Below, in pieces: positions 1-11,754 of a stretch of DNA of 43,879 nucleotides (its first letter is position 1; each line of letters begins with the position of its first letter). The notes below the pieces were generated by a model. That model was not told the origin of the DNA, did no database searches, and worked only from the letters and a program-made list of their open reading frames with translations. Source of the stretch: Balnearium lithotrophicum. Its GTDB lineage: Bacteria; Aquificota; Aquificia; Desulfurobacteriales; Desulfurobacteriaceae. Location: assembly GCF_900182585.1 (NCBI RefSeq), contig NZ_FXTM01000019.1:1-43879 (forward strand), in the 5' to 3' direction. The translations under genes and the position numbers were made by a program.

Positions 1-302
1 ATCTGAGGTTGTCTTACTCTGTGAGGTCTTTTGTTTCTGTCTTTGAGGCCTTCTAAACCGTACTTTTTGTATCTATTTTTCCATTTGTAGAAGGTGGTTG
101 GACTTATTCCGAAGTATCTGCAGGTTAGTCTTGCATTTTGGTGTTTTTCGTAGTGTTGAATCCATTTAAGTCTTTTTCTCACGTTTGGGTCTTTTGTTAG
201 GTCGAGTTTGGTTTTGATTTTCGTTCCTCTTTTGATTGTTTTTTTGAAGGGTGTATTTGATATGTGCAGGGATGCACCTTTGAATTTCTTTAATTGTTTC
301 AT
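1..302 (-). CDS. Transposase, N-terminal part (left IS copy, truncated by window edge)
   Basis: An ATG at 300-302 follows a strong AGGAGGTG Shine-Dalgarno. About 100 codons are present before the window ends. The protein is very basic. Its second half carries a helix-turn-helix of the kind that starts IS481-like DDE transposases, with the signature RYFGISPTTFYKWKNRY followed by GLEGLKDR. The catalytic DDE (rve) domain would lie outside the window. It encodes the same amino acids as the right-hand copy, since all four base differences fall in third codon positions. The family call (IS481-like rather than another HTH/DDE family) rests on the N-terminus alone. Confidence 0.75.
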   Translation of the reverse strand, partial: MKQLKKFKGASLHISNTPFKKTIKRGTKIKTKLDLTKDPNVRKRLKWIQHYEKHQNARLTCRYFGISPTTFYKWKNRYKKYGLEGLKDRNKRPHRVRQPQ

Positions 303-303
303 T

Positions 304-354
304 GGTGGACACCTCCTTTTGTTGGAGTTCAAATCTTATTTTAGGGTGTCCACC
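304..354 (-). promoter_or_regulatory. Hairpin over the transposase ribosome-binding site (left IS)
   Basis: A perfect 10-bp inverted repeat (GGTGGACACC at 345-354 and GGTGTCCACC at 304-313, read on the minus strand) flanks a 31-base loop. The second arm overlaps the end of the AGGAGGTG Shine-Dalgarno and stops one base before the ATG. A transcript entering the element from outside would fold and hide the start, a known IS strategy against read-through expression. That role is inference here. Confidence 0.6.
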
Positions 355-1623: not shown

Positions 1624-1911
1624 TCAATCAAAGAGTAAAGAAATTATTTCCTTAGCGATTTCGCTTGATGTTCTATACAAAACCTTTGTCCCTTCCTTTC
1701 TGAAAGAGAGAATTCCCAACTCCTTCATTAAACCAACATGTTGTGATACTTTTGGTTGAGAAATTTTTAAAATGTCTACAAGGTCCTTAACACAGACCTC
1801 CTTTTCCATAGTGAGAATAACAATGGCCAATCTCTCTGGATGACCTAAAACTCTTAAAAACTCAGCTTTTTTCTCTAAACTTTTTCTCTCTATTTCCAGT
1901 TGGCCAATCAT
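1624..1911 (-). CDS. ArsR/SmtB-family transcriptional regulator
   Basis: A 95-aa winged-helix protein. The recognition region is about residues 40-70 (KDLVDILKISQPKVSQHVGLMKELGIL), followed by the wing (FRKEGTKVLYR). Classical arsenic or zinc sensors carry ELCVCDL at helix 3. Here the corresponding stretch is EVCVKDL with a single cysteine (C40), so the standard thiolate metal site is incomplete and the signal may be redox, another metal, or something else. Its ATG overlaps the stop of the FrhB-like gene by one base (TGATG), so it is translationally coupled as the last gene of the hydrogenase operon. It is a plausible autoregulator of that operon. The inducer cannot be told from sequence. Confidence 0.88.
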   Translation of the reverse strand: MIGQLEIERKSLEKKAEFLRVLGHPERLAIVILTMEKEVCVKDLVDILKISQPKVSQHVGLMKELGILSFRKEGTKVLYRTSSEIAKEIISLLFD

Positions 1912-2801
1912 CAGAACACCTCCTCCTCGTAATCAAAGTTAACCGAATTCCAGATTTTGTAGAACTTTCTAAGCTTCTGGTCGTTCCACTTTGGTAGTGG
2001 AAGCCCTAACTCTATTCTATCGATAATATCCCCTATGTTTAGTAACACTTTTCTCCTGAGGAACTCCAAAATTCCATCTACCAACTTTTTCTCTGCTTTT
2101 TTAAAGAGGATTAATCCAGGATACTTCATTTGTAGTTTTCCTATTGTGCTCCATCCCCTCTCACTTCTGACTATGAAAAGAGCTCTGTTTTCTTCCTTAA
2201 TGGGAACGTAGGTAATATCACTCCCCTTAGCCGATAAGTTAAGACAGTATCGGCAGGCCGAATTCATGTATCTGTGGTGAATTTCTATGGGAACTTCAAC
2301 GTCCTCTCCCTCTACTTCGTAGAAGAGATGGTCTCCTTCAAAGAAAATTCTTTCAACTTTGCCGCTTTTCTTAGATATATCTAAGAGCTCTGCTTCAAAA
2401 GAAGAACTCTTTAAGTTTCCAGGACAGAGAATTCCGATTTTTATTGCAATAGCTGTTTTCGTCCAGTTACATCCTATGCCGTAGTACTGAGTTTTGTTTA
2501 TACCGTCAAAGACACAGGAAGGAGCAAGAACTGCTAATTTTGACAAACTGTACTTTTGAACAGCCTTCTTTAAGAAGGAATTAATCCCAAAACACGCATT
2601 CTTCTTTGGAACTTTGACCTTTTCCTTTGAGAGGATGAGCTCCGGTTTGAATCCATCCTCACTACACGTTAAGAGACCATCAATGAGGTTTTCTAGAAAC
2701 ATAAGTTTTAAAAATTCCTCTAAAGGATTTCCCCTTTCAGAGGTTACCTCAAAGACTTTTCTGTACTTCCCTATAAGAAACTTTTCATCAAGGAATAACA
2801 T
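1911..2801 (-). CDS. FrhB/FdhB-like iron-sulfur flavoprotein (hydrogenase beta subunit-like)
   Basis: A 296-aa protein resembling the beta subunit of F420-reducing hydrogenases and formate dehydrogenases (FrhB_FdhB family), which carry FAD and a [4Fe-4S] cluster and pass electrons to a soluble cofactor. Visible motifs are APSC at C96, GILCPGNL at C126, and CRYCLNLSAKGSDIT at C183/C186, the expected FrhB cysteine pair. It follows the small subunit by nine bases, with RBS AGGGGAG before the ATG. The F/G/A/B composition mirrors Frh, but F420 itself is not expected to be certain in this organism. The acceptor could be F420, NAD(P) or a ferredoxin, so I do not assign the substrate. Confidence 0.82.
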   Translation of the reverse strand: MLFLDEKFLIGKYRKVFEVTSERGNPLEEFLKLMFLENLIDGLLTCSEDGFKPELILSKEKVKVPKKNACFGINSFLKKAVQKYSLSKLAVLAPSCVFDGINKTQYYGIGCNWTKTAIAIKIGILCPGNLKSSSFEAELLDISKKSGKVERIFFEGDHLFYEVEGEDVEVPIEIHHRYMNSACRYCLNLSAKGSDITYVPIKEENRALFIVRSERGWSTIGKLQMKYPGLILFKKAEKKLVDGILEFLRRKVLLNIGDIIDRIELGLPLPKWNDQKLRKFYKIWNSVNFDYEEEVF

Positions 2802-2810
2802 TAACTCCCC

Positions 2811-3539
2811 TTAATAGGTTGGTTGTGGATAGGTTTTAAACGTCTGAGGACAAGCAGCTAAACAGGCTCCACAAAAAACACAAAGGGATAGGTTGAGAGT
2901 AGGTTTGTTGCACCTTTTATCATAGGTTATAGCCCTTGTAGGACAAGCTGTAGAGCAGGTTCCACATCCTGTACAAAATCCCTTATTGACAACTTCTGAA
3001 AGGATATCCAGTCCGCTGACCCTTGCAGAGTTGGCCATGTACTCAAACGGTAGGAGAAAGTCCTCGTTTGATTCTAGAAGAGCAAGGAGAAAACTGTAGA
3101 GGAGTGAAGGGTTGGGAGGACAACCAGGAATAGCGTATTTGATTTTACTTCTTAAAAACTCCAATTCTGTTAGAGGTATAAAGCTCTGTTCGTGGGGTTG
3201 GGGCAACTGATTTCCACAGGAGAGTCGTCTTATTCCCCCGAATGAGGAGCACGCTCCAACGGTAACGATAGCCCTGGCCTTTTCCTTAAGCTGTTTTAGA
3301 AGGTTCAAGTGGTGATGGTCCTCAATACAGAGAGCTCCTTCAACAAAGGCAACATCCATTTTAGGGATTTCTCTGTTTCGAGTAAGCATGTTGGAGTAAA
3401 CTAACTTAACAGTATCAAGTATTTCAACTGCATCTTCAAACATATCCAAAAAGGAAACTTGGCAACCGGAACAGCTTGAAAGGTGGACAAAACCTATTTT
3501 CAGTTCAAAATCACCTTCCTCTGAGAGGCTGTAGAACAA
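2811..3539 (-). CDS. Group-3-type [NiFe]-hydrogenase small subunit with two ferredoxin clusters (FrhG-like)
   Basis: A 242-aa cytoplasmic small subunit that relays electrons from the NiFe site. Proximal-cluster cysteines are C23 and C26 (SSCSGCQVSF), C97 (GACSSFGG) and C140 (PGCPPNP). The C-terminus adds a 2[4Fe-4S] ferredoxin domain with C189/192/195/199 (CTGCGTCSTACP) and C220/223/226/230 (CVFCGACLAACP). This layout is the F420-reducing FrhG type rather than the membrane-bound type, and there is no Tat signal. The likely start is TTG at 3537-3539 behind AGGGGG, nine bases after the large subunit stop. It sits between the large subunit and the FrhB-like gene in one operon. Confidence 0.93.
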   Translation of the reverse strand: MFYSLSEEGDFELKIGFVHLSSCSGCQVSFLDMFEDAVEILDTVKLVYSNMLTRNREIPKMDVAFVEGALCIEDHHHLNLLKQLKEKARAIVTVGACSSFGGIRRLSCGNQLPQPHEQSFIPLTELEFLRSKIKYAIPGCPPNPSLLYSFLLALLESNEDFLLPFEYMANSARVSGLDILSEVVNKGFCTGCGTCSTACPTRAITYDKRCNKPTLNLSLCVFCGACLAACPQTFKTYPQPTY

Positions 3540-3548
3540 TTTATCCCC

Positions 3549-4721
3549 CTAATGGGATGCACATACTATACATGGGTCGTACGCTCTTACAACGTATTCG
3601 ACTTTGTCAATCTCCACACCCTTGAGTGACTCGGAGATTGCCCAAAAATTAATTTCCGTTGGAACTACAATTTTATAATATATAATTTTTCCAGATTTAT
3701 CAATTTTTACAGCATGTACATTTGTTCCCCTTGGAGCTTCGTGGACTCCTACTCCCAACGTTTCTCCATCGGAGATGGGTAACCTTCTATTCCTGAGCTC
3801 CCCAGAAAAACTATTACTTTCAAGGAGTTCAAGAATTCTCTTTAAGGCCTCAACGTTCTCCTCTCCCCTTAAAATGTGGAGCTCCTTTATTCCCCCTTTA
3901 GGTTTATAACCTTTAAAAAAAACTGCCCTTGCTCTCGGACCTGTTTCAACAGGTTTCCCGTTGAGTAGAGGATAAAGGTTAGAAACTCTCCTCTTTAGTT
4001 CACCCTCAAAGATTTCTTGAGGCATCCTAAAGGAAAATCTGTTGAAATCAATTTCCTTACCGTAGTAAAGGTCGGTGGAGAAGAACTCTAAATTGTGACT
4101 TCCAAGGGTTTCTTCTAAGGATTCCCTCCTCCAGAGTTCATCGACAGCTTCCCTAAATGTAAGGTAGTTACTTTCAAGTAAACCTAAAACTTCTTCTCCT
4201 TCCTTTAAAAATTTCTCCTTTACAAAATCCTCGAAAGGTTCTGAGATTCCTCCTACAACTATGTTTGGAGAGTGGATAATTTCACCACCTGCAGACTCAA
4301 GAAGACGGGCTACAAATTTTCTAACTCTTTGAACCTCCCGTATAAACAGAAATCTGTCATCCTTCTTTAGAAATAGGTCCTCAGATACCATTATCTGATG
4401 GAGGAGATTGTTGTAGATTCTAACGGCCAAACCTAAAACTTCCCTTAAAACTTCAGCCTCTGGAGGTATCTCTATTCCCGCTGCAGATTCAATGGCCTTT
4501 GCAGATGCTATCGAGTGGGTTATTTGACAGAGCCCGCAAATTCTACTGGTTAAAACGGGAGCAACAGAGGCCTCCCTTCCAATTAAGAGGGTCTCAAATC
4601 CCCTAACGGGAACCAAAGCAAAGTACAGTCCCCTTTTGACGATTCCATCTTCAACATCCAAGTAGAGGCCCGAATGGCCTTCCGTAAGAGGTATTCCTTC
4701 TATCTTTACAACTTTCCTCAA
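3549..4721 (-). CDS. Group-3-type [NiFe]-hydrogenase large subunit (FrhA-like), no C-terminal peptide
   Basis: A 390-aa catalytic subunit that would hold the NiFe(CN)2CO centre. The N-terminal cysteine pair is C62/C65 in RICGLCQITH. The C-terminal pair is C384/C387 in DPCIVCASH. The reading frame stops immediately after the final His390, so the 10-25 residue C-terminal extension that maturation endopeptidases normally remove is absent. I checked this codon by codon on the minus strand. The start is TTG at 4719-4721, overlapping the hypF stop (TTGA), with GGAGG upstream. It lies in the operon hypF, large, small, FrhB-like, ArsR. The role, H2 uptake or evolution with a soluble cofactor, is inferred from the family. 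Confidence 0.94.
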   Translation of the reverse strand: MRKVVKIEGIPLTEGHSGLYLDVEDGIVKRGLYFALVPVRGFETLLIGREASVAPVLTSRICGLCQITHSIASAKAIESAAGIEIPPEAEVLREVLGLAVRIYNNLLHQIMVSEDLFLKKDDRFLFIREVQRVRKFVARLLESAGGEIIHSPNIVVGGISEPFEDFVKEKFLKEGEEVLGLLESNYLTFREAVDELWRRESLEETLGSHNLEFFSTDLYYGKEIDFNRFSFRMPQEIFEGELKRRVSNLYPLLNGKPVETGPRARAVFFKGYKPKGGIKELHILRGEENVEALKRILELLESNSFSGELRNRRLPISDGETLGVGVHEAPRGTNVHAVKIDKSGKIIYYKIVVPTEINFWAISESLKGVEIDKVEYVVRAYDPCIVCASH

Positions 4722-6961
4722 ATCAACCCTCCGTATACTGCCTGTCCCAAAGAAATTCCCCCATCGTTTGGAGGAACCAACTGGTGAATAATCGGTTTAA
4801 ATCCAAGGGAAGAGAGTTTTTTAAAGGCCTTTTCAACTAAAATCTTGTTTTGAAAAACACCACCAGAGAGAGCTACCTTCCCAATTCCTGTTCTATCCCT
4901 CAGTATTTGTGCTGTTTTAACGATTATGTCAACGACGGTATTGTGGAACTTCATTCCTATTTCCTCAGGTGAAACCCCTTTCTTCAAATCCTCCAGTATT
5001 CCCAAAATTATTGGTCTCCAGTCTATTTCGTTACCTTCTATTTCAAAGGGATAGCTCTTCTCCGTTCTCGCCTTCATTGAGAGCTCTTCAAGTAGAATTG
5101 CTCCCTGTGCGTGGTAGGAAACGTAGTTTCTTATTCCCAAGATGGAGGATACTCCGTCGAATAACCTTCCCATACTTGAAGTTAATGGGGAGTTAACCCC
5201 TTTTAAAACCATCTGCTTTACAAATTCAACTTTTCCGGCCTCAACGTTCAGGAGCTCCCTCGGTTCCTTCTCTACCTCCATTAAAAGTGAAACGGCAGTT
5301 CTGTAGGGTTCCTTTACGGCTTTATCTCCTCCGGGAAGTGGAAAGTACCTCAAGTGAAATTCCCTTTCAAAATCGGTATATGAAGCAGTTAAAACCTCCC
5401 CTCCCCAGATTTTCCCGTCCTTTCCATACCCTGTTCCATCAAATGAAAATGAAATAACTCTCTCCTCAAGGGGAACTTCGTTTTCAGCCATGACTGAGAT
5501 TGTATGGGCGTGGTGGTGGTAAACCTGCCTTACCCTTTCCTGAAAGAACTCTTTCCCAAACTTCGTTGTAAAGTAGCCTGGATGATAGTCTGTAACTACC
5601 ACCTCCGGTTCTAATTCAAAGAGCTCTATTAGGTCCCTGACAGTTTCCTTTAAAAATTCCTCTGCCTTTAAATTGTCGATATCCCCTATGTGCTGGGATA
5701 TGTAAACTTTGTCCTCCTTTCCTACGGCAACTGTAACCTTCATGTGGGGACCAAGGGCAAGAACCGGTCTTTTAAGTTTAAATGGAAGAACTACTGGAAG
5801 TGGAGCATACCCCCTTGAACGCCTAATTGGAACGATTCTACCTGAAATGACCCTAACAACTGAATCGTCGCACCTCCTTGCTATGTCCCTGTTGTGGATA
5901 AGGGCTCCGTCAACTAATTTCCCTAAGACTTTTTCAACCTCTTCGTTCCTGTACATAATCGGTTCATCTGTTAAATTGCAGCTCGTTGCAACAATTGGCT
6001 TCCCAAAGTCCCTAAGGAGGATGTGGTGGAGTGGTGTGTAGGGAAGAAAGGCTCCTACAGTTTTAGTATCTGGAGAAATTGAGGGAGCTAAGTCTGTATT
6101 TTCCTTTCTCTTTAAAATGACAATCGGAGTTTCAACGCTCGTTAGTGCAATTTCCTCAAGTTTCGATACCTCTGCGTACTCTTTTAACTGGTCTAAATCC
6201 TTAAACATAACTGCAAACGGCTTTTCCTCCCTTCTCTTTCTCCTCCGAAGTTCCCTTACAGCCTTTTCGTTCGTTGCATCGCATACAAGGTGAAATCCAC
6301 CCAATCCCTTAACTGCAAGAATTTTTCCTTCCTTGAGAAATCTAACCGTTTCCTTTAATGCACTTTCCCTCTCTCCTATCCTTTCTCCCTTTTCATTTAG
6401 GAGTTCTACATGTGGACCACATTCAGGACATGCGTTAGGCTGGGCGTGGAACCTCCTGTTTAAAGGGTCTGTATACTCCCTGTAACACTCAGGACACATC
6501 TTAAACTTTTTCATCGTTGTGTTTTCCCTGTCGTAGGGAAGGGAGAGTATGATTGTGTACCTTGGACCACAGTTTGTACAGTTTATGAAGGGATATCTGT
6601 ATCTCCTGTTGCTTTTGTCAAAGAGCTCCCTTAGACAGTCCCTACAGGTTGCTAAATCCGGTAGAACGGAGACCTTAACTTCTCCCCTCTTCTCACTCCT
6701 TCTTATTTCAAAATCACTGTAGCCGATGTCATCGAGGAATTTCTTATCGATGCTAAATATCCTTGCAGCCGGAGGGAGCTCTGTCTGGAGTTTCTTTAGA
6801 AATTCCTCCAACCTCTCTTTTTCACCCTCAACTTCAACTACAACACCGGAATCACTGTTCAGTACGTAACCCCTTAGAGAGAGCTCCTTAGCAACTCTGT
6901 AAACGAAGGGCCTGAAACCTACTCCCTGAACAAGTCCTGTAATAAAGAGTTTTAATCTCAT
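4718..6961 (-). CDS. hypF: [NiFe]-hydrogenase maturation carbamoyltransferase HypF
   Basis: HypF converts carbamoyl phosphate to a carbamoyl adenylate and transfers it to HypE, where it becomes the cyanide ligand of the NiFe site. Domains in order over 747 aa are: an N-terminal acylphosphatase (VQGVGFRPFVYR, residues 11-22); two zinc-finger pairs at about 107-190 (CRDC with CTNCG, CPEC with CPECG); a YrdC-like domain; and a Kae1-like carbamoyltransferase part with VYHHHAHTISVMAENE. Length is normal for the family. It is the first gene of the hydrogenase operon and is divergent from purL. The other hyp genes (A-E) are not in the window, so maturation relies on loci elsewhere. Confidence 0.97.
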   Translation of the reverse strand: MRLKLFITGLVQGVGFRPFVYRVAKELSLRGYVLNSDSGVVVEVEGEKERLEEFLKKLQTELPPAARIFSIDKKFLDDIGYSDFEIRRSEKRGEVKVSVLPDLATCRDCLRELFDKSNRRYRYPFINCTNCGPRYTIILSLPYDRENTTMKKFKMCPECYREYTDPLNRRFHAQPNACPECGPHVELLNEKGERIGERESALKETVRFLKEGKILAVKGLGGFHLVCDATNEKAVRELRRRKRREEKPFAVMFKDLDQLKEYAEVSKLEEIALTSVETPIVILKRKENTDLAPSISPDTKTVGAFLPYTPLHHILLRDFGKPIVATSCNLTDEPIMYRNEEVEKVLGKLVDGALIHNRDIARRCDDSVVRVISGRIVPIRRSRGYAPLPVVLPFKLKRPVLALGPHMKVTVAVGKEDKVYISQHIGDIDNLKAEEFLKETVRDLIELFELEPEVVVTDYHPGYFTTKFGKEFFQERVRQVYHHHAHTISVMAENEVPLEERVISFSFDGTGYGKDGKIWGGEVLTASYTDFEREFHLRYFPLPGGDKAVKEPYRTAVSLLMEVEKEPRELLNVEAGKVEFVKQMVLKGVNSPLTSSMGRLFDGVSSILGIRNYVSYHAQGAILLEELSMKARTEKSYPFEIEGNEIDWRPIILGILEDLKKGVSPEEIGMKFHNTVVDIIVKTAQILRDRTGIGKVALSGGVFQNKILVEKAFKKLSSLGFKPIIHQLVPPNDGGISLGQAVYGGLI

Positions 6962-7054: not shown

Positions 7055-9277
7055 ATGGATAGAAGACTTATTGAACAGCACGTTACTCTGGAAGAGTACC
7101 AGAAAATTCTGGAACTGCTTGGAAGAGAACCAAATTTAGTTGAACTTGGTATATTTTCGGCTATGTGGTCCGAACACTGTTCCTATAAGTCTTCAAGGCC
7201 ACACCTCAAAAAGTTTCCAACAGAGGCTCCGTGGGTGGTTCAAGGACCCGGTGAAAATGCAGGAATCATAATGGTTGATGAGGAAAGGGGAATATGTGCA
7301 GCTTTCAAGGTTGAGTCCCACAACCACCCATCCTACATAGAGCCGTTCAACGGAGCAGCTACAGGTGTAGGTGGAATTTTGAGGGACGTTTTTACAATGG
7401 GTGCCCGCCCTGTAGCCTGTATGGATTCTTTAAGATTTGGAGAGCTTCACGACTCAAAGATGAGGTACGTGACGAAGGGAGTCGTTTCTGGTATTAGCCA
7501 CTACGGAAACTGTGTTGGAGTTCCGACAGTTGGAGGAGAGGTTTACTTTGATTCGTGTTACCAGACGAATCCCCTTGTAAATGCATTTGCACTGGGACTT
7601 GTTAAGAAAGACAAGATTTTCTACGCAAGGGCAGCAGGAGTTGAGAATCCCGTTATATACGTTGGAGCAAAGACGGGAAGGGATGGAATCCACGGGGCAA
7701 CAATGGCATCTGAGGAATTTTCCTCAGAGGAGGAGGTTGAAAAGAAGGTTAACGTTCAGGTTGGAGACCCATTCCTTGAGAAGCTCCTGATAGAAGCCTG
7801 TTTAGAGGCAATGGAAAAGGAAGGAATAGTTGCTATTCAGGATATGGGAGCTGCTGGATTAACCTCATCCTCGGTTGAGATGGCCTCCCGCGGAGGCGTT
7901 GGCGTTGAGTTAGACCTTGATAAGGTTCCTACGAGGGAAGAGGGGATGACCCCTTACGAGATAATGCTCTCAGAATCTCAGGAGAGAATGTTAGTTGTCT
8001 GCGAAAGGGGAAAGGAAGAGGAGATAATGAACGTTTTTAGGAAGTGGGGATTAGATGCCGTTGTAATTGGTGAGGTTATTGAGGAGCCTGTTTTGAGGCT
8101 CTTTTGGAAGGGAGAGGTTGTTGCGGAGCTCCCTATAAAGGCACTTACAGATGAAGCTCCCGTTTACTATAGGCCCTTCAAGGTACCAAAGTACATTATT
8201 GAGAATAAAAAGTACGACCAGAACGACATTCCTGAACCTAAAAACCTAAACGAAGTTGTAAGAAAGCTCCTTTCCTCCCCTACGATAGCAAGTAAAAGGT
8301 GGATCTGGGAGCAGTACGACCACATGGTTCAGATAAATACCGTTGTCTATCCTGGTTCAGATGCGGCCGTTTTGAGGGTTAAGGGAACAAAAAAAGGAAT
8401 AGCTATAAGCAGTGACTGTAATTCAAGGTACTGCTATCTGAACCCTTATGAGGGTGGAAAGATAGCCGTTGCTGAAGCAGCAAGGAATGTTGCCTGTAGT
8501 GGGGCCGTTCCAAGGGCCATAACGGACTGTTTAAACTTTGGTAGTCCGGAGGACCCGGAAATTATGTGGCAGTTTGTCAAGGCAACAGATGGAATGGCCG
8601 ACGCCTGTAAGGTTCTTGAAACTCCGGTTGTCAGTGGGAATGTAAGCTTTTATAACGAAACAAAAACAGAGGAAGGAAAGAGAGCCATTTTCCCAACTCC
8701 TACAGTTGTCTGTGTGGGGGTTTTAGAAGATGTAGAGAAACGGATGACCTCCTACTTTAAGAACGAAGGGGATATTATCATCCTACTTGGCGAAAACACC
8801 GGAAATATTTCCGGTTCAGAGTATCAAAAGTTAGTGGAGGGTGAGTTTAAGGGAAGCGGTCAAACGGTAGATTTAAGATTTGAAAAAACCCTTCAGGAAG
8901 CTTTAATTGAAGCAATAAAATCGAAACTGATAAAACACGCCCACGATGTATCTGAAGGTGGTTTAGCAGTTAATCTCTTTGAATCCTCCTTCGAGAGGGG
9001 CTTAGGGTTTGAAGTTAATTTAGATGACGATTTGAGAACCGATTTCTTACTCTTCGGAGAGGAGCAAAGCAGAGTCGTTGTAAGTACCTCTCAGAACAGG
9101 TTGGATGAAGTATTAGAGTTTTTCAAGAGAAAAGCCGTTCCAGCTAAAGTAATAGGTAAGGTAGGTGGTAAAAGGGGAATAATCAAACATAAGGGAAGAG
9201 AAGTTGTGAATATTCCAATAGAGGAATTAAAAGAGCTCTATGAGAACTCCTTAGAGAGAGAGCTTGGTATCTGTTAA
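7055..9277 (+). CDS. purL: Phosphoribosylformylglycinamidine synthase, PurL (small type)
   Basis: This enzyme converts FGAR to FGAM with ATP in de novo purine synthesis. The 740-aa protein matches the small PurL type, which works with separate PurS and PurQ subunits; neither is in this window. Typical signatures are [18 protein letters not shown] near residue 35, GPGENAG and [11 protein letters not shown] with the catalytic His, and paired AIRS-like halves with a second metal-binding region at MLSESQERM. The ATG follows a GGGGAGAG site. The 3' end overlaps the TTG start of the downstream sensor kinase by 14 bases, an unusual pairing of a housekeeping gene with a two-component system. Confidence 0.97.
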
Positions 9278-10436
9278 ATTCTCCTTTGAAAAGCTTCAAC
9301 TTATTTATAAGGTTGGCAGATTGGGATTCTCTGCCGGCCTTTTTGTTCTCCTTCTTTCGGTTTACTCGATAAGTTCAAAATTTCTCGACCCATACTCCTA
9401 TTTAGTTTTAGGAATCTATTCTTTTATCTCATTTCTTATCCTTCTTTTTTCGGAAAAGTCCTACCTTTATGAATTTCTCCTTGACGAATTGTTTCTTTTT
9501 CTCCTTGCAGTCAAGGGAGTTTTTTCGTACACCATTTTTTCTCTCTTTCTCTTCTTTCCGATTTTTTTCTCCTCCCTTTTTCTAAACAGATGGCAGGGGA
9601 TATCTGTTCTTATCCTTTCCTATTCACTTCACATTTTTTACTTTCTTATAGAGAGGGGAGAATTTAATCTACTTCAAAGTTTTCTTAACTTTTTAGCCCT
9701 TACTCTAATTTTCTTAATTTCCCAGAAAATAAGGGAAAACATGGAAGAACAAAAGAGAAATTTTGAGGAGTTGGAAAAATTAAAGAAAGAGTCTGAATTT
9801 TATAAAAGACTCTACGAAATAAGTGCAAACCTAGCTCACGAACTGAAAAACCCGTTAGCTTCAATTAAGGGAGCTCTCCAATTAATAAAACCGGAAAGGG
9901 AAAATGAGAAGTTAATGAAAATTCTTTTTACTGAGGTTGATAGACTCGATAGAACGATAAGGGATTTTCTCAATTTATCAAGGCCTATGCCCCAGTTTAG
10001 AAAACGAATTAATGCCAAACAGGTTGTAGAAACTGTTTGTAATAATCTTGTTTCAGAGAAATCCTGCAAAGTAGAGGGTGAAGACGTATGGATTTTTACA
10101 GACCCACAATCTTTCAATTCCGTTGTTGAGAATCTAATAAACAATGCTCTCTACTGGGCAAGGAGTCAAGTTATTGTGAAGGTTAAAAAGGATAGAAATT
10201 TACTTGAACTGAGGGTTGAGGACGACGGTCCAGGGGTTTTAGAAGAGGATAAAGAGAAAATTTTTGAGCCATTCTTCTCAAGGAGAAGTGGTGGTTCCGG
10301 CCTTGGCCTCTCCATTGTTAAGAAGTTTGTGGTTGAAAATGGAGGATTTATCCTTGTTGAAAGGAGTTCCTTAGGGGGAGCTGCTTTCATTTTAAAAATT
10401 CCTGTTGGAGAGTTTGATGAGAGCTCTGATTCTTGA
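9264..10436 (+). CDS. Membrane sensor histidine kinase, PilS/NtrB-like
   Basis: A 390-aa protein. Residues about 20-155 form five or six hydrophobic segments. A short coiled stretch (155-185) leads to a HisKA domain with the phospho-acceptor H192 in [16 protein letters not shown]. The ATPase domain follows with N-box [12 protein letters not shown]1 VEDDGPGV and F/G2 box [19 protein letters not shown]. The six-helix sensor plus partnership with a sigma-54 activator is the architecture of PilS, which controls type IV pilin genes; no pilin gene is here to confirm that. The start is TTG, overlapping purL, with a GAGAGAG site. It is translationally coupled to the regulator gene. Confidence 0.9.
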
Positions 10437-11754
10437 GGATGAGATTAACTTAAGGGAAATACTCAAAATGCTCGTTGGTGAGTTTGGTTACGAAATTAGC
10501 GAAGCTGGAAGTTTAAAAGAGGCTTTTTCCCAAATCGATGAGAGAATCTACGATTTAATTCTCGTTGATTTGAGGCTTCCTGATGGTTTTGGCATGGAAG
10601 TTGTGAGAAAGGTTAAAAAGGAACAGCTTGAAACTGAAATGATAATAATTACAGCCTTTGCTACGACGGAGACAATTAAAGAGGCATTTGAATTGGGGGT
10701 TTACGACTACATAGAAAAACCCTTTAACGTTGATGAACTGAAGCTGATTTTAAGGAACGTTACAGAAAAAATTAGATTGAAGGGGAAAACAGAAGAAGAC
10801 TTCCCTTTAATAGTTGGAAAATCAAAGGTAATAGAGAGGTTAAAGGAACAGATAAAAAAAATTGCTCCTTACGATGTCAACGTTCTGATTTTAGGAGAGA
10901 GTGGAACTGGTAAAGAACTCGCAGCAAGGGCAATTCACAAGTTAAGTCCAAGAAGGAATAAACCCTTTGTTGCAATTAACTGTGCAGCACTACCGATGGA
11001 GCTACTTGAGAGTGAACTCTTCGGTTATAAGAAAGGGGCTTTTACTGGAGCTCTCTCTAACAAAATGGGACTTATAGAGAAGGCCGACGGAGGAACTCTC
11101 TTTTTGGACGAAATAGGGGATATGCCATTACAACTTCAAGCAAAGCTTCTAAGGTTTTTAGAGGAAAAGACATTTATCCCTTTAGGTTCAACTCAGGAAA
11201 AAAGGGTTGATGTAAGAGTTTTGGCAGCTACAAACAAGGACTTAAAGAGGGAAATTGAGGATGGAAGGTTTAGAGAGGACCTCTACTATAGGCTTGCAAC
11301 AATCACTCTATGCACTCCTCCTTTAAGGGAGAGGAGGGAGGATATTCCTATCTTGGTTGAATACTTTGCAGATATCTTTTCAAAGAAGTACAAAAAGAGG
11401 GTAAGGAAAATTTCTCCCCGCTTCATAAAGTACTTATCCTCACTACCCCTTGAAGGAAACGTTAGGGAACTTAAAAATTTGGTTGAAAGGGAGGTAATTC
11501 TCTTAGACGATGATGGAGTCCTTGGAGCTGGCTTCTCTTTCGAAAGCTTTAGTATTCAGGATGTTGAAATTCCACCTGAGGGAGTAAACCTGAAAAAAAT
11601 TCTTGAAGAAACGGAAAAAAATTACCTGCTTAAAGCACTGAAGTTAGCTGAGGGAAAAAAGACGAAGGCAGCAGAACTTCTTGGATTAACATTTAGGGAG
11701 TTTAGGTATAGATTAGGAAAGTACACCCCCCAAAGGGGGGATAAGGAAGATTAA
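10417..11754 (+). CDS. Sigma-54-dependent response regulator, NtrC/PilR-like
   Basis: Receiver domain with phospho-acceptor D51 (YDLILVDLRLPDG), then a central AAA+ domain with Walker A GESGTGKE (160-167), the sigma-54 contact loop GAFTGA (207-212) and Walker B GGTLFLDEIGDM. It ends in a Fis-type helix-turn-helix (KTKAAELLGLTFREFRYRL). I choose ATG at 10417, giving 445 aa, because GGAGAG sits six bases upstream and the protein then begins MRALILEDE as is usual. An upstream in-frame TTG at 10405 has no ribosome-binding site. It overlaps the kinase 3' end. Its stop overlaps the convergent tig stop by four bases. PilR is the likeliest subtype but targets are unknown. Confidence 0.92.
   Translation: MRALILEDEINLREILKMLVGEFGYEISEAGSLKEAFSQIDERIYDLILVDLRLPDGFGMEVVRKVKKEQLETEMIIITAFATTETIKEAFELGVYDYIEKPFNVDELKLILRNVTEKIRLKGKTEEDFPLIVGKSKVIERLKEQIKKIAPYDVNVLILGESGTGKELAARAIHKLSPRRNKPFVAINCAALPMELLESELFGYKKGAFTGALSNKMGLIEKADGGTLFLDEIGDMPLQLQAKLLRFLEEKTFIPLGSTQEKRVDVRVLAATNKDLKREIEDGRFREDLYYRLATITLCTPPLRERREDIPILVEYFADIFSKKYKKRVRKISPRFIKYLSSLPLEGNVRELKNLVEREVILLDDDGVLGAGFSFESFSIQDVEIPPEGVNLKKILEETEKNYLLKALKLAEGKKTKAAELLGLTFREFRYRLGKYTPQRGDKED
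11726..11740. terminator. GC hairpin between convergent genes
   Basis: CCCCCC-AAA-GGGGGG forms a six-base-pair GC stem with a three-base loop. It lies inside the last codons of the response regulator and just past the tig stop codon. A weaker AAGG/CCTT pairing and the T-run CTTTTT follow on the plus strand. It probably ends transcription from both sides. Termination strength is inferred. Confidence 0.5.

Follow-up and report, generated by a model that had tools for sequence, protein, structure and literature searches.

The [NiFe]-hydrogenase operon described here, hypF-frhA-frhG-frhB-arsR, lies on the minus strand of a 43,879-nucleotide stretch of DNA (the window), which is contig C19 (NZ_FXTM01000019.1) of the Balnearium lithotrophicum genome (1.73 Mb, 99.91% complete). 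Judged from its sequence, the hydrogenase is an F420-independent offshoot of the group 3a (F420-reducing) [NiFe]-hydrogenases that is specific to the family Desulfurobacteriaceae, and the ArsR-type regulator encoded at the end of the operon belongs to the frhAGB unit of this family as a constant fourth component. We tentatively propose that frhAGB-arsR is a regulatory module responsive to H2 or redox state, the most likely of the purposes considered here.

The genes of the window were identified with Pfam and NCBIfam profiles. The first gene of the operon, hypF (4718-6961), encodes a carbamoyltransferase of [NiFe] cofactor synthesis (TIGR00143, 859.6 bits, cut-off 466.1) and overlaps frhA by 4 nt. 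The large-subunit gene frhA (3549-4721; 390 aa) is followed by frhG (2811-3539), whose product combines a 20-kDa-subunit domain with a 4Fe-4S ferredoxin domain, by the frhB-like gene (1911-2801; 296 aa; PF04432, 51.2 bits, cut-off 23.3) and by arsR (1624-1911; 95 aa; NF033788, 72.1 bits, cut-off 55; PF01022, 37 bits, cut-off 22); the stop codon of frhB and the start codon of arsR share one base (TGATG). An earlier note on this DNA, made from the letters alone, had proposed this operon of five genes and a ferredoxin-bearing small subunit, and the profiles confirm both. It had also taken the three subunits for an F420-hydrogenase set. The subunit set and a group 3a descent hold, but FrhA (TIGR03295, 318.4 bits, cut-off 392.5), FrhG (TIGR03294, 241.9 bits, cut-off 245.5) and, by far, FrhB (TIGR03289, 63.4 bits, cut-off 331.5) all score under the curated equivalog cut-offs for F420-reducing Frh.

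The operon is a family trait. In a sample of 121 genomes from the class, 22 of them from the host's family Desulfurobacteriaceae, FrhA (E <= 1e-40) was found in 20 of the 22 family genomes and in none of the other 99; the two family genomes without it are 83% complete. The order frhA-frhG-frhB-arsR on a single strand is kept in 18 of the 19 relatives' loci, the contig of the remaining one (L038) stopping about 109 bp after frhB, and chance is excluded as the cause of this conserved order. The head of the operon is more variable: hypF stands there in 15 of the 19 relatives' loci and is missing from the four loci of a divergent genus (g4), three of which extend far enough upstream to have a frame of 1064-1086 residues in its place. 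In the g4 locus that was scanned (L043:6224-9418) the gene that precedes and overlaps frhA in hypF's position encodes an Mfd-type (TRCF) helicase.

The ArsR gene follows the hydrogenase closely. Its orthologs form a distinct group in the class sample (19 genomes at E <= 1e-27, the next best match at 5e-20) and occur in 19 of the 20 genomes with frhA and in none of the 101 without it; the sole miss (G030) is at a contig end. In all 19 the start of arsR overlaps or closely abuts the stop of frhB. A tblastn search that covered 86 Frh loci from archaea, short ones among them, returned just one chance match (E 0.65). Across the same 12 relatives ArsR is better conserved than FrhB (57-78% versus 34-59% identity to the window protein), and its single cysteine, Cys40 (codon 1792-1794), is invariant in 19 aligned copies, which bears out the earlier description of a single-cysteine ArsR as the last gene of the operon.

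Published papers are cited here by PMC number and, for the most part, from the sections available. That this family has Frh, beside the hydrogenase operon hyn, but no F420 genes has already been published (PMC5441870; HydDB, PMC5037454), and our own searches agree with it. The Frh of Thermovibrio ammonificans and Desulfurobacterium belongs to the same family and the same operon, with hypF-frh beside hyn (PMC5441870, PMC12724263); the linked ArsR, the missing FrhA extension and the loss of FrhB motifs described below are not discussed in the available sections of these accounts, and the single ArsR mentioned in those of PMC5441870 is a plasmid gene. Together with a palindrome at the hyn promoter, these three features appear to be new, as they were not found in the parts of the openly licensed literature searched.

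Group 3a descent is supported by phylogeny of the large subunit, a check that the earlier note had suggested. In a careful maximum-likelihood tree of 36 hand-picked large-subunit rows, the family FrhA sequences form one clade (100/100) on a long stem, which falls inside a clade of methanogen and Thermococcus FrhA (100/98); the placement within that clade is not settled. A quick tree, for which the loci of methanogens with numbers beyond L080 were thinned out according to number, grouped the family with the methanogens, whereas the careful tree left a methanogen versus a Thermococcus origin undecided. Distant archaeal FrhA-like rows, which may be paralogs, fall with the outgroup (five in the quick tree and four in the careful one, where L128 is titled Bathyarchaeota). 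Both [NiFe] ligand motifs, L1 (RxCGxC) and L2 (DPCxxCxxH), are present in all 20 family FrhA copies. For comparison of the subunits, 16 regions were taken from the 23 of 61 Thermococcus-type genomes that have FrhA; the other archaeal FrhA copies were labelled by locus title and are mostly from methanogens, and FrhB copies were assigned to the Thermococcus or the other set by best-matching query.

The C-terminus of FrhA sets the family apart from its archaeal homologs. The frhA gene ends at the histidine of DPCIVCASH (codons 3552-3578) and encodes no cleavable tail: all 20 family copies stop there, at the mature C-terminus, with zero extra residues, as against 5-6 in 16/16 Thermococcus copies and 15-43 in each of the 68 copies from other archaea whose end is complete. 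In the solved structure, proteolysis has left FrhA ending at the corresponding histidine (PMC3591093; chain 4ci0_A); the family FrhA would presumably need no maturation protease. Large subunits that naturally lack an extension are reported from the sensors of groups 2b and 2d and from groups 4c, 4e and 4g, with none listed for group 3 in the text available (PMC7294309). The missing extension was considered as proof of a sensor and rejected; it is not specific to sensors because EchE of the same genome likewise lacks one.

FrhG and the iron-sulfur part of FrhB look fully equipped. The CxGC and PGCPP motifs and two CxxCxxCxxxC motifs of FrhG are kept in 20/20 family copies, as are FrhB cysteines 96, 126, 183 and 186, which hold a [4Fe-4S] cluster. 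The flavin site is a different matter. In the solved FrhB the flavin adenine dinucleotide (FAD) is surrounded by loops 23-30 (24-QDGG), 71-77 and 131-138 (PMC3930138). None of the 20 family copies has the GG motif in place, which is found in 16/16 Thermococcus and 46/46 other copies; a regular expression for it did match one family copy, probably L036, outside the N-terminal site, and this match was not counted. The GTKY-type loop is likewise absent from all 20 (16/16 Thermococcus, 45/46 other copies), and so is the S-x-G-x-V loop (11/16 and 42/46, respectively), which PMC3591093 put near F420 and whose pocket was empty in a later map (PMC3930138). FAD has therefore probably been lost from FrhB, and the description of the protein as a flavoprotein was not upheld. 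Since the motifs for the [NiFe] site, FrhG and the FrhB cluster are kept, the route of electrons between H2 and the cluster of FrhB looks intact, and the hydride-transferring end looks removed. A protein partner taking one electron at a time is the likelier acceptor because the FAD motifs are gone in every family FrhB. The earlier suggestion that FrhB serves another acceptor than F420, proposed before in the literature (PMC5037454, PMC5441870), stands in this form, but not as a flavoprotein with a different acceptor.

The overall fold of FrhB is kept in the predicted model (mean predicted local distance difference test score, pLDDT, 82.4), whose best matches are solved FrhB chains (9r51_B, Z 26.1, root-mean-square deviation 2.9 over 260 aligned residues; 4ci0_C, Z 25.5). 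It is thus conceivable that a rebuilt pocket of FrhB houses another flavin, or some different cofactor, and that two electrons are still passed to a small acceptor. Such a pocket could be lined by a new invariant loop, NKxQYxGIGxN (102-112), the invariant columns among 13 aligned family sequences including N102, K103, Q105, Y106, G108, I109, G110 and N112; all three motif regions tested are nevertheless gone in the whole family, no known flavin-binding motif was identified in place of the lost ones, and we regard a rebuilt pocket as improbable. In the same 13 sequences the C-terminal tail of FrhB, which ends in EEEVF, is invariant at W284, N285, E292, E293, V295 and F296.

Our searches for F420 biosynthesis agree with a bacterial host without the pathway, as had been supposed. 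CofD had no match in the host genome, in a search that was positive in 10 of 14 control genomes; CofE was absent from 22/22 family genomes (the search was positive in three controls, all archaea); and CofG gave no match over its cut-off in any of the 22. CofC lay outside these searches. All 22 family genomes have CofH-like matches, three of them slightly above the CofH cut-off, and the two of these that were scanned fit MqnC of menaquinone synthesis better than CofH (519 and 531 versus 377 and 375.5 bits). In T. ammonificans the F420 pathway is missing and no autofluorescence of F420 is seen (PMC5441870), and the HydDB authors consider that the enzymes of Aquificae and Thermococci probably use another partner than F420 (PMC5037454). 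A conventional Frh that is provided with F420 and reduces it, for which the family names of the subunits and their descent are the only points to be made, is accordingly difficult to reconcile with the missing cof genes in a nearly complete host genome, with the lack of autofluorescence and with the lost FAD/F420 motifs of FrhB; we give it next to no credence, and we caution against annotating the Desulfurobacteriaceae enzyme as F420-reducing. In methanogen FrhABG (group 3a; PDB 4ci0, 9r51, 6qgr) the subunit set, the clade, the [NiFe] and cluster motifs and the FrhB fold are shared with the family system, which differs in the F420 genes not found, the FAD/F420 motifs missing from FrhB, the absent FrhA extension and the linked ArsR.

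The gene next to arsR offers a candidate target for the regulator. Among relatives outside g4 whose contig continues, hynA is the next gene after arsR in 12 of 12, and the arsR-hynA gap usually contains the palindrome ATAAAGAATTCTTTAT. At least nine sites with no more than one mismatch were found in the 22 genomes among the matches listed, eight of the nine directly upstream of hynA; the sole site elsewhere among these matches is G032:C14:109375-109390. Upstream of hynA a site scoring 19 or more is present in 12 of 15 relatives outside g4 and, with the window, in 13 of 16. Nine arsR-hyn sites served to build the score matrix, so their own scores are not independent of it; the genome-wide mismatch search and the sites in the window, G036, G028 and G038, which were outside the training set, are independent. 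Between the centre of the palindrome and the first base of the -35 box the distance is 65 bp in 10 of 13 promoters, 73 bp in two and 56 bp in one (the spacing in G004 was recounted by hand, an inner TTGAC having been taken for the box). In an alignment of eight promoters anchored at the palindrome, identity is 0.89 within it and 0.41-0.56 in the upstream flanks; it rises to 0.80-1.00 in a second footprint that covers the -35 box and the bases just before it. Besides the palindrome, hynA upstream regions (e.g. L029 12645-12890) carry the conserved element TTCTAAAAATAGAAAATTAGCATA, which adjoins the upstream side of the hyn -35 box.

In the window, promoter scan and genome-wide search place the palindrome, ATAAAGATTTCCTTAT, at 439-454 (no strand assigned), with a TTGACA that is the presumed -35 box of hynABC at 376-381 on the minus strand, 65 bp from the palindrome centre. 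Here hemB and then an insertion sequence now stand between arsR and hyn, and both the palindrome and the TTGACA persist. The end of the insertion sequence occupies about 354 down to 1, after the TTGACA box. This element in the hyn promoter (window 1-354, L169:1-240), with a transposase-like frame and the end GGTGGACACCC, splits the assembly into contigs C19 and C34 at this point; C34 has insertion-sequence sequence at its start, followed by hynABC and maturation genes. ArsR is a putative binder of the hyn palindrome and no more, since seven family genomes that have it lack such a palindrome at hynA. We also considered the palindrome as a shared operator of a hydrogenase regulon and rejected it, as only the host has a good copy at the hyd-ech promoter, with two mismatches, 105 bp upstream of hydB (score 18.7). 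Two-mismatch matches are mostly noise, for in many genomes the reversed pattern, used as a control, matched about as often.

Taken as a regulatory module, frhAGB-arsR might work as follows. H2 would be split at FrhA, and electrons would reach the FrhB cluster by way of the FrhG clusters, from where a protein partner would take them up singly; depending on its state, and perhaps by means of its conserved EEEVF tail, FrhB would alter ArsR via Cys40 or by direct binding, and ArsR would tune hydrogenase genes, first of all the usually adjoining hynABC operon. Such a module would be of low abundance. In its favour we count the constant link to one orthologous ArsR, the unextended FrhA, the FAD motifs missing from an otherwise retained FrhB fold, the position of hynA after arsR with the palindrome at its promoter, the non-detection of Frh in two proteomes and the H2 control of hydrogenases in D. 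thermolithotrophum HR11 (both described below). Further, but with more doubt, the system may represent an independent evolution of H2 sensing, in which a group 3a hydrogenase stripped of its coenzyme site and maturation tail became the input of a dedicated ArsR that governs how much hydrogenase these deep-branching chemolithotrophs of vents make. All H2-sensing [NiFe]-hydrogenases in the HydDB table are of group 2 (PMC5037454).

Known systems provide partial precedents. The regulatory hydrogenases (HoxBC/HupUV, group 2b) resemble the family system in a large subunit that naturally lacks an extension (PMC7294309) and in a co-encoded signalling partner; they differ in belonging to another hydrogenase group and in signalling through a histidine kinase (PMC5037454 table), where a one-domain ArsR is found here. 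The group 2b trait of an unextended large subunit occurs in 20/20 family copies and, given EchE, is not specific; tree and profile place the protein in group 3a and not in group 2b, though it could act in the manner of a sensor. The other group 2b trait, a linked histidine kinase, is lacking: a histidine kinase and a sigma-54-type response regulator (9264-11754, assigned by Pfam), two genes away from the window operon, were considered as a HoxJ/HoxA-like pair and are left outside the module because they have no match (E <= 1e-20) in the 19 relatives' frh loci. The genes purL and hemB have no match in those loci either. SurR of the Thermococcales is an ArsR-related winged-helix protein that exerts redox control over hydrogenase genes and, as an activator, uses sites that lie upstream of the promoter (PMC12162507). 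Two winged-helix domains and a CxxC switch set it apart from the family ArsR, which has 95 residues and one cysteine. The surR gene is not known to be encoded together with a hydrogenase. The earlier view of ArsR as an unusual controller holds in that such a regulator is unusual for a hydrogenase; it is, however, no stray neighbour but fixed in the family, and SurR is a precedent (PMC12162507).

Physiological data from the family are compatible with more than one purpose. In D. thermolithotrophum HR11 at low H2, Hyd and Ech were up about 8- to 18-fold and Hyn 2.5- to 3.1-fold, and neither a sensor nor an ArsR is mentioned in the available sections of that study (PMC12724263); should the module be an H2 sensor, the control of hydrogenases by H2 in this species would gain a testable sensor candidate. 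Frh itself was undetected in the proteomes of T. ammonificans (PMC5441870) and strain HR11 (PMC12724263). This is expected of a scarce sensor, would suit a silent enzyme equally well, and could also be cited, with the fast divergence of FrhB, for a functionless, decaying relic of a horizontally acquired Frh. Decay sits poorly with intact reading frames and metal-ligand motifs that are invariant in 20/20 copies, with the retention of Frh throughout most of the family, and with hypF transcripts reported for Thermovibrio and Desulfurobacteriaceae metagenome-assembled genomes, where frhA is not given by name (PMC12628806); we consider a relic very unlikely. For a Thermovibrio genome of this kind, PMC12628806 also reports a transcript of an 'F420-non-reducing hydrogenase'.

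Besides the equal fit of a silent enzyme, several observations weigh against a regulatory module. The gene that heads 15 of 19 relatives' operons, hypF, serves cofactor synthesis and is uninformative on purpose; the extension loss, shared by host EchE, is no sensor hallmark; and the evidence for cofactor loss from FrhB is that of motifs. No such palindrome is present at hynA in G002 and G020 (g2) and G008, all of which have ArsR, none was found by eye at hynA in the four g4 genomes, which have ArsR as well, and none scored upstream of hypF, although ArsR proteins usually control their own operon. At the hyd-ech promoter the scores of the 17 scorable relatives (3.0-17.6) all lie below that of the host; G030, whose start was misplaced by a contig end, was left out.

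A second reading is nearly as likely: Frh would be an active cytoplasmic hydrogenase whose electrons go to another protein (ferredoxin or thioredoxin reductase), perhaps under redox or oxygen stress, and ArsR would control only its own operon and keep it off in ordinary growth. The intact [NiFe], FrhG and FrhB cluster motifs are compatible with such an enzyme, and the absence of a hyn-type palindrome from the frh promoter leaves room for a different operator of its own. Thioredoxin reductase is reportedly named as electron acceptor of the Thermococcus onnurineus hydrogenase in the title of a 2020 paper by Jung et al. In that archaeon deletion of frhA raised, and overexpression of frhAGB lowered, O2 sensitivity, and the authors discussed a possible regulatory role of frhAGB (PMC6367845); for the family enzyme ferredoxin was suggested as acceptor earlier (PMC5441870). 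The T. onnurineus frhAGB hydrogenase is likewise a group 3a homolog in a non-methanogenic host, and the FrhA tail of Thermococcus is short. The analogy is weak, though, because Thermococcus FrhB keeps its FAD motifs (the GG motif and GTKY-type loop in 16/16) and no linked ArsR occurs in the 16 loci. A regulator that stays linked even where hypF is absent also goes beyond the need of an ordinary catabolic operon. If the system is not a sensor, a group 3a enzyme that dispenses with F420 and lacks both FAD motifs and a maturation tail would be a natural experiment in which an F420 hydrogenase was rewired to a protein acceptor.

Two minor observations concern other hydrogenase genes of the host. 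Its hydB is split over two reading frames (L047:1365-1991 and 2023-2454), with 212 residues open as compared with about 360-390 in 18 relatives, by a frameshift or a sequencing error. The host group 3b HydA (G000:C9, L047:4036-5343) reads DP-TGA-IACAVH, in which a selenocysteine likely replaces the first L2 cysteine.

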